The position numbers and the translations under genes are program-made. A stretch of DNA of 64,000 bases from an uncultured Clostridia bacterium (lineage in GTDB: Bacteria > Bacillota > Clostridia > Oscillospirales > CAG-272), in assembly GCA_947630625.1 (NCBI GenBank), contig CANRIL010000002.1, positions 1-64,000 on the forward strand, read 5' to 3'. Each line of letters opens with the position of its first letter. Position 1 is the stretch's first letter. This document shows positions 19,571-25,275 of the stretch, piece by piece. The notes under the pieces are model-generated. The model was not told where the DNA came from. It saw only the letters and a program-made list of their open reading frames with translations, and ran no database searches.

Positions 19571-19622
19571 GGCGGCAGAGGCCGGACGGTTTTCCCGTCC
19601 GTATCAAAGCCTCAGCCGCCCC
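19571..19622. terminator. nested hairpin between rsmI and the TIR-SecA gene
   Basis: An outer 12-bp stem with one mismatch (GGCGGCAGAGGC near 19571, GCCTCAGCCGCC to 19620) encloses an inner GGACGG/CCGTCC hairpin. It can serve convergent genes, though no long T run follows on either side. Confidence 0.5.
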
Positions 19623-19640
19623 GACATTTTCATGAGTCGG

Positions 19641-19745
19641 TCTTTTTTACTTGCGTGCGCGCCGTCGGGATGCGCAGCGCGACACGGCGATTTTAGTCGC
19701 CGTCATTCATCTTTTTTACTTGCGTGCGCGCCGTCGGGATGCGCA
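19641..19745. repeat. 36-bp perfect direct repeat at the 3' end of the TIR-SecA gene
   Basis: Copies lie at 19641-19676 and 19710-19745, offset by 69 bp. The second copy is coding and gives the peptide RIPTARTQVKK near the protein end. The first lies after the TAA stop but, since 69 is a multiple of three, it stays in frame and would encode the same peptide again before a TGA. Confidence 0.9.
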
Positions 19746-22700
19746 CCCTGAACAGCGATACCGCGGCGTCTCTCAGAAGACGCCTTTTTTCCGCTTCAAG
19801 ACTGCGCTCGACGGTGCGCTCCGTAAATTTTCCGTCTGCGCACAGCTTCTTTTCAAATTCGATAAACGACGCCCAGGCGGAGAGCAGCGCGGAGCAGTAA
19901 GCGGTTTTCAGCTCCGGCATGTCGTTATAATTCTCGGTTTTGTACCTTGCGGTGATATCGGCGCGCAGCGCCTTCAAAATCGCCGCCGAGGAAGCCTTTG
20001 CGCCCCTCTCGAATTTGAACCCGAATTTATCACAATATTTCTTGTAAATATAATTCATCAAAGGCGAGCAAACGTCGAAACTGTTTTTTTGTTTGCGCGA
20101 GAATTCCGCAAGCGTCTCGTCGTCCTTCGCCCACATGATGAGCACGTCGTCGACCGTCAGCCTGTCACGGCGGATGTCAAATTTTCTCCCGATAAAGTCC
20201 GCCCTCGCCTTTTCGATGTGCGAAAGCTCGCTGTTTCTTTTTCTTATGTCGGCAAATTTGGCGTCGTGCAGCTTCTGCCGCGCGGACTTGAGGCTCTTTT
20301 CGAGAATTTTGCCGTCCATCACTTTCGATTCAACATCATCGAACAACCGCTCGATCCACTCGATCATCTCAGGCGATATCAGCCGCCTGAGCGCATCGTC
20401 GTTGACCGACCTATATACAATGCTCTCGCCAACGTCTCCCTGCCGCCCGCTTCTGCCGCGAAGCTGCTGCTCCGTCCGCATTTCCTCGAAAAAGCTCGTC
20501 CCGATCACGGCAAGCCCTCCGGCGGCGATGACGGCGGCGCGTTCCTTTTCGGCGAACATCCTGTTTTTCTCAAGTATGCTCCTGTATTTTTTGAACACCT
20601 CCGCCTTTTCCCCGTCCATACCGTCTGACATCTTCGAATATATGAAGCTGTCGATGTCCGATATGTCGACCTCGAGCGCGGCGAGCTCGCGCTTCGTCAT
20701 AAGCTCCGGATTGCCGCCGAGCTTTATGTCGACTCCGCGGTTCGCTATCGCCGTGGTGATGAGGACGGAATCGGTGACTCCCGCGTTTGAGAGGATATCG
20801 GAGGACTCGTCGACGTTGTTCGCGTTCAAAAGCCTGTGCTTTATGCCTTTTTGGGAGCAGAGCCTTGAATACCGCTCCGATTCCTCGATGCTGCCCGTCA
20901 TTATAAGGATCGGCTGATGCCGTCTGTGCCTTTCGGCGATGTCGGCGAGGATCGCCTCCTCCTTCGCGAACCTGTCAATGTATATCGGTGACTGCGTATC
21001 CTTTCTGACGCACGGAAACATCGGCGGGATCGAAACATATTCAAGGCCGTAAATTTCCTCAAATTCACGCCGGAAGCTGACCGCCGTCGCCGTCGTGCCG
21101 CATACATGCGCGAATCTCCCGCATATATCCCGCAGGCACGCCTTATTTCTCACGGTGCTGCTGCGCGAAAGCGCCCTCTCTGCCTCCGCCGTGTCAAGCT
21201 CATTTATGCGGCAGAGAAAATACCGCCACGACGGAGAAATATCGTTGTAAACTCCCCGCTCGCGGTCCTCCACAACGGGCTTTCCGTCCTTTATGTAGTA
21301 GTCCTTGCCCTTTACATTGTGCAGGCACGTCAGCGCGATACGCACGAGCTGTTCCGCCTCGCGGATCTCCCCCGCTGCCGTTACGTCGCTGTACGACACG
21401 CCGAACACGCTCTCGATGATCTTTACGATCTCCGGGGTGAAGCTGAGCGTCGCGCCGCCGTCTATGTAACTGTCCGCGTCATCTTCCGCCATAAGCGCGG
21501 CGCGATATGCCATCTGATGGCGCGCCACCGCGGAATTGTCGCCGTTTTTATTTTCAGCCGATACGACTGTGTATTCCTGGCTCGCCGAATCGACGAGCAC
21601 GCTGTCCGCCTCGTCAATTATAATGCTGTCGGTGCGGATCACGCATCTGTCGGATGTCAGCGAGATCTCGCTTTGCAGAATGGCGAAGATCAGGCTCGCT
21701 ATGTCCGCGTAGAGCACGTCCGGCTGAACATACGACTTATCTATCTTTTTGTTGTCGTCAATGCAGCCGACGCTGACGCCGAGCAGTTCAAAAACACCGT
21801 GCATCCAGCTGAAATTCCGCCTTGTCAGATACTTCGAGGCGTCCGCAACGACGACCTTGCGCCCGCATACGTATTCATAAAACGCGGTCAGAACGATCGT
21901 GTATGTCTTCCCCTCTCCATTCATTATCTCGGCGATTTTCCCGTCCGCCATCGCGGCGGCGCCCGCGTACTGAACGTAGTGGTGCCTGTATCCGAGGGCG
22001 CGCATACCCGCCTCGCTCACGAGCGCGAACGATTCCGGCATAAGCGACAGCGGCGGCTCCCTTTTTGATCTGGCGCGCAGCGACGACGCCGCCTCCGCAA
22101 GCTCGGAGTCCGTCATACCGGAAAAATCAAACCGTGACGCCTGCGACGCTATGCGCTCGTATTTTTTCGTGTTCCCGCCGTTGTTCTCTTTCAGAAATTC
22201 GCGGTAGTAGCTCGTGTACTGTTCCTGATCGCCGCCGGCGCTGAAGGCGAGTTTTTCACGGTTTGCCGCCATCTCCCTTATGCTCTCAAGCATATCGAGC
22301 GTGCCGCTCTGTTCGCCGCCGCACGCGGAGCGATAAACGTCCGCGCGGCCTTTGCCGAGCTCCTTTTCTATAAACTCGGCAGCCTCTTCGAACATTCCGC
22401 CGTTTATATATGCGTCGACAATGTTTTTCGCCGCCTCTACCGCTTCGTCGGCGTGCGCCTCGTTCTCTCCCGTTCCGGCGCCCTCCGCAAACTTCCTCTC
22501 CGCCTCCCTCGGCTTTCCCGCGAGCGCAAGGTCGGAGGCGAACTTCAGCGTCCAAAGCTTTTTCGCGTTCAGCACCTCGACGCGGCTCTTGAATTCCCCC
22601 TCAAACGCGCGCATGCCGGAGGCGAATAGCCTGCCATACGCGGCAAACAGCTCGTCCCCCCTGTCGCCGAGAGAGCTGAGCATATCGATATACATCATAA

Positions 22701-25104
22701 GGACGGTCACGTGCCACGCGCAGTCCGATTTAATTGAAAGCGCCCTTGAGCACAGCATCGCCGCCGCGCGCGGATTGCCCGCGCGCCTTACCATGCCGAC
22801 AAGCATGATCACTATGCTGTCGATGATCTCCATAGTGTCGTCGTCGGGAGCGCTGTCGATCGCGAGCTCCAGAAGCCGGTCGAGATGATCCGTCATTCCC
22901 GCGTAGTTCCGCTTTGAAAACATCTCAAGAATTTCGCACGCCTCAAACCATATTTCCTGCTCGTCCCCGGCCTCGCCGTCGGGATCGAGCTCCCCGTCCG
23001 CCTCGCTGCATACCATCGACCGGATGCTTTCGGCGATTTCAAGAATTGACCTTCCGGAGTCGGCGAAGCTGTCGATTTCCGGCGCGTATCCGGCGGCGGC
23101 GCTTATGTCGCCGATCATGTACAGCATCCTGTTCCGCTCGCTCGCCGCGATCCGCGCAAGCGGCAAAATGAACGACCTTACGTATTCTTCCGCTTTCAGC
23201 TTAAAATACGCTTCCGAGAACTCGTCCATCTCATATTCCGGCACGTTTTCGTCAAATTCGTCGATTTCGTTATCGTCGTCGATGCCGAAGTCAAAATTCC
23301 CGTCCGAATTTTCCCCGCCGTTCCCGCCGTTCCCGCCGTCCCCGGCGTAAGCGTTTTTGATATTGTCGACGATCCCGTTTATAAAGTCCTCGTCAAGCCG
23401 CTTCTTTTCACACACGCCTCTGTCGTCAAAGCTGCCGATAATTTCAAGCAGGCGCTTTTCTTCGTCAAACGATTCGCCGTCGCTTATATATCTTCCGACG
23501 AGCTCCGTCATCTCGGCATATTCGGGCGGCAGCCCGGCCGCGGTGAAGAAGTATTCGAGCTTGCGAAGGACGGAGAACAAAAGCGTCGAATTGTCCCCGT
23601 AGTTGACGAAAAAGGAGCTGTGGCTGCCAAAATAGTCGATGCACGAGATCATTATATGATACGCGTCCGGGAATCTTTTCAGCACGATCCCCGCGATCAG
23701 CGGCTCCGTTGAGACAGTCCTGCGCCTTTTATCTATGTCGAGCCAGCGGTGGCGTTCGAGCGTCACAACAGCCGACCAATCTTCAACGCCGCAGTCCTGC
23801 AGTATGCGCCTGAAATCCTTTTCCGGTATCTCCGGTACCGCCATGAGCGACGCCGCGACAAGCACCGTAAGCTCGTCGGACGTAAGCCCCTCAAGGTCGA
23901 TCAGGGATTCGATCTGACCCATTATGCGTTCTTCGAGCCTCGTGCCTTCCGCGCCCTTCATTGACAAATACTTCGGCAGCTCGTCCGGCATGACGCCGAA
24001 ATCGCGCGAAAGCACCGCCGCCGTCAGCTCGACCGTCTTTGTATGCCCGCCGATGCGCGAGAAAAATGAGATCAGCGGCTCGCGGAGCGTTTCCTTTTCA
24101 TCGTCGTCCGCGTAATTGTAATAATGATAAAACAGTTCGAGCAGATGCTCGTCCGCCATCCTGCCGAGATTTATGACCGGGAAGCGGTCGGACAGATAAA
24201 CGGGCGTCTCCTGCATGAGCAGCAGGAATCTGCATTTAAGCCCTGTCATCATATCGTAAAGGTCGTCGTCCGGCTCGTTGTCCTCTGAAACGTTCGTCAC
24301 GACGATCATCGTCCTCTCGTCGAGCTTTGAAAGCTCGCGTATCTTCTGCATCATAAGCGAGCTGCCGGAACTGTTTTCAAACCTTTTCTCGTTTATATTC
24401 TGAAACCGCAGATTGAACGTGAAAAAATCGGAAAGGTCGCCGCCGCAGTTGTCTACGAGCACGATCGAATCATACTTGTCGCGGTAGAGTTCCGCGCATT
24501 TTCTGGCTATGCTGCGCTTTCCGAAGCCGAACAGCTCCTTGATTATGACGACGTTCGATCTTTCAAATCCGATTGCCAGCTGTTCAAGCGCCGAGTCGCG
24601 GCTGTGCTCGACGAAAAAGCCCGCCTTGACAAGCTCAACGCCGTCGATCTTCGGGGTGTTTGCCTCAAACGGCTTTTCGGGATTTCCCTCTTTTCTCAGC
24701 CTGAGAAGCTTCTTTGTGCGCTCGACGATCGTGTCAATGCCGCCGGAGCCCTCCCGGCGCTGAACAAAACTGCCTGTATATGAGATATGGTTGAGCTGAA
24801 GCTCAAAATCCGGAGTATACGGCTCGTCGGTCAGCTTGTAAACGAGTATGTTGAGTTTGCCTTCTCCCTCGAGCTCTCTTGCCTTTATGACCTCGTTTTT
24901 GACATACCCCTTCTGCATCGAAGCCTTGCTTATTATAACAATAAATACCTGGCACCGCTTGATGTTTTCAATGCACTCGCGTGAAAAATCGGATACGCAC
25001 TCAACGTCCGAGTCCCAGCATCCGATCCCCTCAGCCCTGAGCCTTTCGACGATTTCATCCTTCACATAGCGGTCGGCGCTTGTCCAGCTAACAAATACTT
25101 CCAT
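19693..25104 (-). CDS. TIR-STAND-helical repeat-SecA motor fusion protein
   Basis: This 1803-residue protein has no signal or membrane segment. Residues 1-115 are a TIR domain (MEVFVSWTSADRYVKDEI, ISKASM, probable NADase Glu71 in YVKNEV). About 160-480 resembles an NB-ARC/STAND ATPase with altered Walker A GFGKRS (193-198) and non-acidic Walker B MIVVTNV. About 480-980 is helical, TPR-like, with a Gly/Asn/acidic linker at 588-625. From ~985 it follows SecA: GEGKT (1063-1067), DEAD (1164-1167), CGTTAT, NRGVDIKLGGN (1455-1465), LRGRSGRQGD (1548-1557), then a scaffold-like helix; the C-terminal zinc tail of SecA is missing. GGGGGAG precedes the ATG. I know no characterised protein with this order; role unknown, NAD signalling or defence is a guess. 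Confidence 0.88.
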   Translation of the reverse strand: MEVFVSWTSADRYVKDEIVERLRAEGIGCWDSDVECVSDFSRECIENIKRCQVFIVIISKASMQKGYVKNEVIKARELEGEGKLNILVYKLTDEPYTPDFELQLNHISYTGSFVQRREGSGGIDTIVERTKKLLRLRKEGNPEKPFEANTPKIDGVELVKAGFFVEHSRDSALEQLAIGFERSNVVIIKELFGFGKRSIARKCAELYRDKYDSIVLVDNCGGDLSDFFTFNLRFQNINEKRFENSSGSSLMMQKIRELSKLDERTMIVVTNVSEDNEPDDDLYDMMTGLKCRFLLLMQETPVYLSDRFPVINLGRMADEHLLELFYHYYNYADDDEKETLREPLISFFSRIGGHTKTVELTAAVLSRDFGVMPDELPKYLSMKGAEGTRLEERIMGQIESLIDLEGLTSDELTVLVAASLMAVPEIPEKDFRRILQDCGVEDWSAVVTLERHRWLDIDKRRRTVSTEPLIAGIVLKRFPDAYHIMISCIDYFGSHSSFFVNYGDNSTLLFSVLRKLEYFFTAAGLPPEYAEMTELVGRYISDGESFDEEKRLLEIIGSFDDRGVCEKKRLDEDFINGIVDNIKNAYAGDGGNGGNGGENSDGNFDFGIDDDNEIDEFDENVPEYEMDEFSEAYFKLKAEEYVRSFILPLARIAASERNRMLYMIGDISAAAGYAPEIDSFADSGRSILEIAESIRSMVCSEADGELDPDGEAGDEQEIWFEACEILEMFSKRNYAGMTDHLDRLLELAIDSAPDDDTMEIIDSIVIMLVGMVRRAGNPRAAAMLCSRALSIKSDCAWHVTVLMMYIDMLSSLGDRGDELFAAYGRLFASGMRAFEGEFKSRVEVLNAKKLWTLKFASDLALAGKPREAERKFAEGAGTGENEAHADEAVEAAKNIVDAYINGGMFEEAAEFIEKELGKGRADVYRSACGGEQSGTLDMLESIREMAANREKLAFSAGGDQEQYTSYYREFLKENNGGNTKKYERIASQASRFDFSGMTDSELAEAASSLRARSKREPPLSLMPESFALVSEAGMRALGYRHHYVQYAGAAAMADGKIAEIMNGEGKTYTIVLTAFYEYVCGRKVVVADASKYLTRRNFSWMHGVFELLGVSVGCIDDNKKIDKSYVQPDVLYADIASLIFAILQSEISLTSDRCVIRTDSIIIDEADSVLVDSASQEYTVVSAENKNGDNSAVARHQMAYRAALMAEDDADSYIDGGATLSFTPEIVKIIESVFGVSYSDVTAAGEIREAEQLVRIALTCLHNVKGKDYYIKDGKPVVEDRERGVYNDISPSWRYFLCRINELDTAEAERALSRSSTVRNKACLRDICGRFAHVCGTTATAVSFRREFEEIYGLEYVSIPPMFPCVRKDTQSPIYIDRFAKEEAILADIAERHRRHQPILIMTGSIEESERYSRLCSQKGIKHRLLNANNVDESSDILSNAGVTDSVLITTAIANRGVDIKLGGNPELMTKRELAALEVDISDIDSFIYSKMSDGMDGEKAEVFKKYRSILEKNRMFAEKERAAVIAAGGLAVIGTSFFEEMRTEQQLRGRSGRQGDVGESIVYRSVNDDALRRLISPEMIEWIERLFDDVESKVMDGKILEKSLKSARQKLHDAKFADIRKRNSELSHIEKARADFIGRKFDIRRDRLTVDDVLIMWAKDDETLAEFSRKQKNSFDVCSPLMNYIYKKYCDKFGFKFERGAKASSAAILKALRADITARYKTENYNDMPELKTAYCSALLSAWASFIEFEKKLCADGKFTERTVERSLEAEKRRLLRDAAVSLFRVRIPTARTQVKKMNDGD

Positions 25105-25140
25105 ATTACTTCTCCCCCGCAGCACTCATTTACACCTGAC

Positions 25141-25169
25141 AGTATATCACAATTTATTCGGTTTGTCTA
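25141..25169 (-). promoter_or_regulatory. sigma-A promoter of the TIR-STAND-SecA gene
   Basis: Minus strand: TAGACA (25169-25164), 17-nt spacer, TATACT (25146-25141), with TGA directly before it as an extended -10. It is about 36 nt before the ATG and separate from the acpP transcript. Confidence 0.7.
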
Positions 25170-25212
25170 TAAGCCCCTCATTTATAACGTGCGGCGCAAA
25201 AAAATACGACAA

Positions 25213-25256
25213 AGCGCGCGGGGCAGCATCTGACATTTTGCCCCGCGCGTTTTTTG
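25213..25256. terminator. terminator after acpP
   Basis: CGCGCGGGGC (25215-25224) pairs with GCCCCGCGCG (25240-25249) across 15 nt. T6 follows on the plus strand; on the acpP strand CTTTGTCGTATTTTTTT follows, so it can work both ways. Confidence 0.7.
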
Positions 25257-25275
25257 ATATGTGATATGGATCCTC

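Follow-up and report, generated by a model that had tools for sequence, protein, structure and literature searches.

A family of Clostridia proteins combines a TIR domain, a degenerate STAND module and a SecA motor in a single chain

Introduction

TIR-NLRs, such as RPP1 and Roq1 of plants, and bacterial TIR-NB-ARC-TPR STAND proteins are the closest described systems to the protein presented here. The C-terminal modules of NLRs occupy the sensor position. Avs (AVAST) STAND anti-phage receptors are large single proteins with a sensor half, and use a working STAND ATPase together with repeat sensors. All examined TIR NADases require a conserved glutamate (PMC10022894). The ATPase of the preprotein translocase is SecA or SecA2. 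The loop of its preprotein-crosslinking domain (PPXD), conserved in all SecA proteins including SecA2, couples substrate passage to ATP hydrolysis (PMC7503281). Giant actinobacterial polymorphic toxins carry a SecA-like domain, which was proposed to aid their secretion (PMC8195603).

The 64,000-nucleotide stretch of Clostridia DNA analysed here (the window) encodes a protein that resembles TIR-NLRs and bacterial TIR-NB-ARC-TPR proteins in the order of TIR, NB-ARC, winged helix and helical repeats, in the catalytic glutamate, and in profile and fold matches. The protein and its homologs differ from them in lacking the NB-ARC catalytic motifs and leucine-rich repeats, and in carrying a SecA motor behind the helical repeats. 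They share with SecA and SecA2 the whole fold, Walker A and B, motif V and the GRxxRQG arginines; however, their PPXD and coupling loop have diverged, and SecA is placed behind a TIR-STAND assembly. The profile and fold matches to Avs4 and Avs5 are weak, Avs proteins contain no SecA, and PADLOC gave no Avs match. The actinobacterial toxins are likewise conflict-type proteins with a built-in SecA-like ATPase, but they are secreted, contain GT4, HTH and MFS parts, and none has TIR-STAND. Openly available papers, few preprints among them, that mention both "SecA" and "TIR domain" contained no description of a TIR-STAND-SecA protein. Thus, as the initial annotation had held, we found no described precedent for the architecture in the literature or in PADLOC. 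The TIR-STAND kind of receptor is already known, and the SecA module is the surprising part.

Gene and domain organization

The gene occupies the minus strand of the window and is divided as follows.

19693..25104, minus strand: whole gene of the TIR, pseudo-STAND, helical and SecA protein, 1803 residues (open frame; five other distinct full-length homologs)
25141..25169, minus strand: promoter-like site TAGACA-17-TG.TATACT (10 of 12 consensus positions, extended -10; a consensus match only)
25111..25118, minus strand: Shine-Dalgarno-like GGGGGAGA (from the sequence)
24691..25104, minus strand: TIR domain, residues 1-138 (Pfam TIR_2; profile matches to the TIRs of Cat1, Roq1 and RPP1)
24892..24894, minus strand: codon of putative catalytic Glu71 (invariance of N70-E71; alignment to Roq1 Glu86)
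23950..24627, minus strand: degenerate NB-ARC/STAND NTPase module, approximately residues 160-385 (homology to the intact NB-ARC of relatives; NLR fold match)
23665..23949, minus strand: winged-helix-like region, residues 386-480 (predicted structure; fold match across the NLR core)
22225..23664, minus strand: variable helical-repeat region with acidic linkers, residues 481-960 (all-helical prediction, partly of low confidence; 20% mean pairwise identity)
19696..22152, minus strand: SecA homology, residues 985-1803 (Pfam, fold)
21541..22152, minus strand: first part of SecA NBD1, with Walker A GEGKT at 21904-21918 and the DEAD box (Walker A invariant; DEAD in five of six, DEID in L042)
21130..21540, minus strand: position of the diverged PPXD (3 of 58 housekeeping-invariant columns kept; about 26-27% identity among fusions)
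20335..21129, minus strand: end of NBD1 and NBD2, with motif V RGxDIxLGG and the GRxxRQG arginines (conserved in six of six; Pfam P-loop_SecA)
19696..20334, minus strand: helical scaffold, wing and two-helix-finger-like region, residues 1591-1803 (predicted long helix and hairpin; SecA fold match; 2 of 52 invariant columns kept)
19571..25275, no strand: insertion between convergent rsmI and acpP (sister-species comparison; the interval is about 0.1 kb and empty there)

The coordinates of the gene agree with the initial annotation. The reading frame starts with ATG at 25104, ends with a stop codon at 19693-19695, and is unbroken by internal stops; its longest possible start is a GTG at 25125. 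Counted from the ATG, the motif positions given previously are also correct (Glu71, GEGKT at 1063, DEAD at 1164, CGTTAT at 1335, NRGVDIKLGGN at 1455 and LRGRSGRQGD at 1548). Pfam places TIR_2 (E=1.5e-12), SecA_DEAD (2.4e-45) and the SecA P-loop domain (P-loop_SecA, 2.1e-50) on this single frame, and the NB-ARC, SecA_PP_bind and SecA_SW models do not match the window protein. The proposed order of TIR, STAND-like, helical and SecA parts is borne out by Pfam for the TIR and SecA, and by relatives and fold for the NB-ARC, whose homology was recognized because of these rather than Pfam.

The third-position GC content of the gene is 0.72, equal in both halves, and lies within the range of its neighbors (0.69-0.80), so that composition lends no support to a recent foreign origin. 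A perfect 36-nucleotide direct repeat is present at 19641-19676 and 19710-19745 of the window, 69 nucleotides apart. One copy encodes the C-terminal tail of the protein and the other lies directly past the stop codon, so that the repeat reads as a recent duplication of the 3' end of the gene.

TIR domain

Pfam TIR_2 matches all family members. The TIR is the most conserved region among the fusions, with a mean pairwise identity of 0.54. In the PDB, the family profile finds Cat1 and also Roq1, the latter across both TIR and NB-ARC. Residues N70-E71 show no variation among the seven family members, and the relative G248 has them too. Position count along the family-profile alignment pairs Glu71 with Glu86, the catalytic residue of Roq1. 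The earlier suggestion that Glu71 is the catalytic glutamate is consistent with this invariance and alignment, and the protein may possess Glu71-dependent NADase activity.

Degenerate STAND module

The N-terminal and SecA halves were modeled separately with AF2 from alignments of five to six sequences (pTM 0.40 and 0.44). The model of the N-terminal half (pLDDT 68) is most similar in Foldseek to the plant TIR-NLR RPP1 (3e-9), followed by the STAND-TPR protein 6mfv, Apaf-1, CED-4, Roq1 and Avs4. Together with homology to relatives with intact motifs, this identifies an NB-ARC fold followed by a winged helix and repeats. The NB-ARC-like module of the initial annotation therefore holds as a fold, but not as a working STAND ATPase, since its motifs are degenerate, which had gone unnoticed.

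The P-loop of the six fusions reads GFGK[RK] followed by S, T or A (or GFGRKS), the Walker B aspartate is missing at the aligned position, and glutamine replaces the sensor arginine. Every fusion has lost all three features of a nucleotide switch, the Walker A Thr/Ser, the Walker B aspartate and the sensor arginine. The relatives compared, TIR-NB-ARC-TPR proteins of approximately 800-830 residues and other STAND proteins, lack SecA and have intact Walker A GK[ST], hhhhDN and sensor-position arginine in all 14 cases examined. Because of the degenerate motifs, the STAND ATPase of the fusions is probably not a working nucleotide switch. NB-ARC decay can also occur without SecA, as shown by the GVGRRS P-loop of 9m0n, a structurally characterized TIR-TPR protein that has no SecA. 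Another Clostridia genome (L148, 353-6936) encodes three TIR genes in a row, two of them TIR-NB-ARC-TPR relatives and one TIR-Sel1.

SecA half

A SecA fold past residue 980 had been set beforehand as a test of the initial annotation. Foldseek aligns the C-terminal 838 residues with SecA structures over their whole length (E=1e-36, 860 columns, TM 0.60), including the scaffold, wing and finger-like helices. The domain order NBD1-PPXD-NBD2-HSD/HWD/2HF is preserved over the full length, with subdomain limits taken from secondary structure. The motor motifs Walker A GEGKT, CG.xAT, RGxDIxLGG and GRxxRQG, the last with its arginine fingers, are invariant in all six fusions; in the Walker B box, L042 has DEID and the five others have DEAD.

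The SecA halves of the five other fusions are 32-45% identical to that of the window protein, and the mean identity of the fusions to ordinary SecA is 26%. The 36 housekeeping SecAs compared have 341 invariant columns; 72 of these are retained in every fusion, and 123 have disappeared from all of them. The columns kept by all are scarce in the PPXD (3/58) and in the C-terminal helices (2/52). All six fusions have lost residues of the PPXD loop (the V-D-E-x-T-G-R-x-M region) and of the G-L-H-Q-A-I-E-A-K-E stem, and thus none has a PPXD with conserved coupling loop and stem. Pfam SecA_PP_bind and SecA_SW match no family member. The NCBIfam SecA and SecA2 models all match the window protein, but far below their cut-offs (354 versus 800 bits for SecA). 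Pairwise identity among the fusions is 0.46-0.48 in the SecA nucleotide-binding domains, 0.27 in the PPXD, 0.24 in the C-terminal helices, and lowest in the helical region, at 0.20. The ratio of PPXD to motor identity is about 0.55 in the fusions versus about 0.9 in housekeeping SecA, a contrast that is only moderately strong because the fusions are more divergent overall. The SecA part, as judged from these alignments, keeps the motor and not the translocase-specific surfaces. It was initially described as a near-complete SecA motor, and that description stands for the motor and needs correction for the diverged PPXD and its coupling loop.

One fusion (G011; locus L034, identical to L044, 3644-8944) has retained a SEC-C zinc motif at its C terminus (PCPCGSGLKYKNCC; Pfam 6.5e-8), a sign of descent from an ordinary SecA. 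A separate ordinary SecA is present in the window genome (G000:C25, a 908-residue open frame) and in each of the five other fusion genomes. A 725-residue frame on the same contig as the gene (G000:C2:155575-155769) has a weak SecA_DEAD match and is probably another helicase. The SecA half (window 19696-22209) strongly matches phrog_32805, of unknown function (2.6e-73); a SecA-like family therefore exists among phage or prophage proteins.

Distribution and genomic context

Homologs were sought with the N-terminal half as query, sidestepping the flood of ordinary SecA matches. Six distinct full-length fusions have the same four-part order; those beyond the window, from Oscillospiraceae and other Clostridia MAGs, are 1728-1767 residues long (G211, 1737; G011, JAEEJH010000040.1, 1767; three named Oscillospiraceae MAGs, 1763, 1751 and 1728). 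The family is rare and is carried by about seven genomes. An order-level search of 394 genomes returned three positives: the window, G211 and one SecA-less relative. The best two candidates per genome for the SecA profile in 391 class-level genomes yielded no more fusions, and the window was the sole fusion among 349 phylum-level genomes searched for the NGEGKTY pattern. The fusion thus recurs in independent assemblies as six full-length open frames, which rules out an assembly join, the alternative left open by the initial annotation.

The seventh member, L045 (2479-5127), is 882 residues long and ends naturally just before the start of SecA, followed by a terminator-like hairpin and a T-run. 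No SecA remnant or split-off SecA gene was found on its contig, and its genome contains ordinary SecA only in fragments. The NB-ARC motifs of L045 are degenerate like those of the fusions. The N-terminal tree places L045 within the fusions, together with G211 (97/93 support), and SecA was therefore probably lost from it.

In the two closest sister species, G116 and G929 (RsmI 76% identical), only about 0.1 kb separates the convergent rsmI and acpP, between which the gene lies in the window. The neighbors of the other fusions are ordinary, metabolic genes at sites unrelated between genomes: ABC/FtsX and AraC-type, sugar kinase and SDR, LRR and aldose epimerase, APH-like, and mandelate racemase. 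From the differing neighbors and the empty sister sites, we conclude that the gene stands alone, has entered different sites and has no constant partner; its own promoter, proposed earlier, corresponds to the promoter-like site listed above. The window site has no clear target-site duplication. The proposed anti-phage role gained no support: neighbors are metabolic, no defence-island genes were found at the fusion loci examined, PADLOC gave no convincing match to a known system, and the family has no match in phage records, plasmid records or viral contigs. The NGEGKTY signature occurs in 42 stretches of viral contigs, none of them SecA.

Discussion

We put at even chances the explanation that this single gene encodes not an exporter but a TIR-NLR-like intracellular receptor, in which the ATP-driven engine was swapped from STAND to SecA. 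A TIR/NB-ARC/helical-repeat STAND protein would have gained a SecA module at its C terminus; in the SecA-bearing clade the NB-ARC catalytic motifs would then have decayed while the SecA motor stayed constrained. NB-ARC decay and SecA gain would constitute one event in one clade, and their link is a correlation with n=1. The SecA-less L045, whose NB-ARC is nevertheless degenerate, implies that a form without SecA can persist, unless it is a pseudogene in that MAG.

At rest, the TIRs would be kept apart by the SecA motor together with the helical repeats. A trigger, most likely a polypeptide, would be bound by the variable PPXD and helical surfaces and change the ATP state of the motor, upon which the TIRs would join. 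The joined TIRs may cleave NAD+ in a Glu71-dependent manner, or produce a cADPR-type signal, and stop the cell, for defence or suicide. An effector and an engine with variable ligand-facing parts are expected to show high identity in the TIR and SecA nucleotide-binding domains and low identity in the helical region, PPXD and C-terminal helices, as is the case. The promoter-like site, the one-gene insertion and the separate ordinary SecA in each of the six fusion genomes also count for the receptor; the lack of defence-island neighbors and the few sequences behind the AF2 models count against it. We hold at just under an even chance the narrower proposal that a translocase motor has become the ATPase that regulates an immune receptor, with a dead STAND switch and a SecA DEAD motor, freed from SecYEG, that would sense or pull a polypeptide and gate the TIR NADase. 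We hypothesize, as did the initial annotation, that the SecA part threads or remodels a polypeptide.

The complete SecA fold, the separate normal SecA available to be guarded, and the C-terminal, NLR sensor-like position of the module would also suit an integrated decoy, which mimics essential SecA, baits invader proteins attacking SecA or Sec export, and trips the TIR by its fold and not by ATP hydrolysis. We consider such a decoy unlikely, as it should retain the surfaces visible to an attacker, but the PPXD and C-terminal surfaces diverged most and the buried ATPase motifs were kept; moreover, one literature search gave no known SecA-targeting phage protein. Somewhat less probable still is a TIR-tagged SecA paralog that works at SecYEG in specialized export or senses jammed export. 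Homology to SecA across all domains, the SEC-C motif of one member and the secretion role read from the giant toxins (PMC8195603) speak for it. However, the 123 housekeeping-invariant columns kept by no fusion include residues of the PPXD loop, the universal coupler of substrate to ATPase in SecA (PMC7503281), and of the stem; in addition, the fusion leaves the N terminus of SecA buried, and the SecA_PP_bind and SecA_SW models match no member.

We assign a similarly low probability to the TIR acting only as an assembly or scaffold domain of a non-lethal, ATP-dependent remodeler with a housekeeping or stress role. A lone gene amid metabolic genes would be in keeping with such a protein, but the catalytic glutamate is invariant across deep divergence, and the patchy distribution (three of 394 genomes, one of them with the SecA-less relative) and empty sites argue against housekeeping. 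All named members are MAG contigs, yet an assembly artefact or a decayed, functionless fusion is hardly credible: separate assemblies yield six distinct full-length frames, each at its own locus, which conserve their motifs and have no internal stops, and third-position GC is like that of the neighbors in both halves.

Across all of life, NLR-like receptors are assumed to rely on their STAND ATPase. In the receptor with a swapped engine, that ATPase has seemingly been replaced by an unrelated one known mainly from export. If this is true, the family would represent a new class of engine for NLR-like receptors and the first non-secretory job for SecA. It would also provide a clean natural test of the role of the nucleotide switch in TIR receptors, and would mean that the peptide-handling motor of SecA is separable from the membrane channel and usable for sensing.
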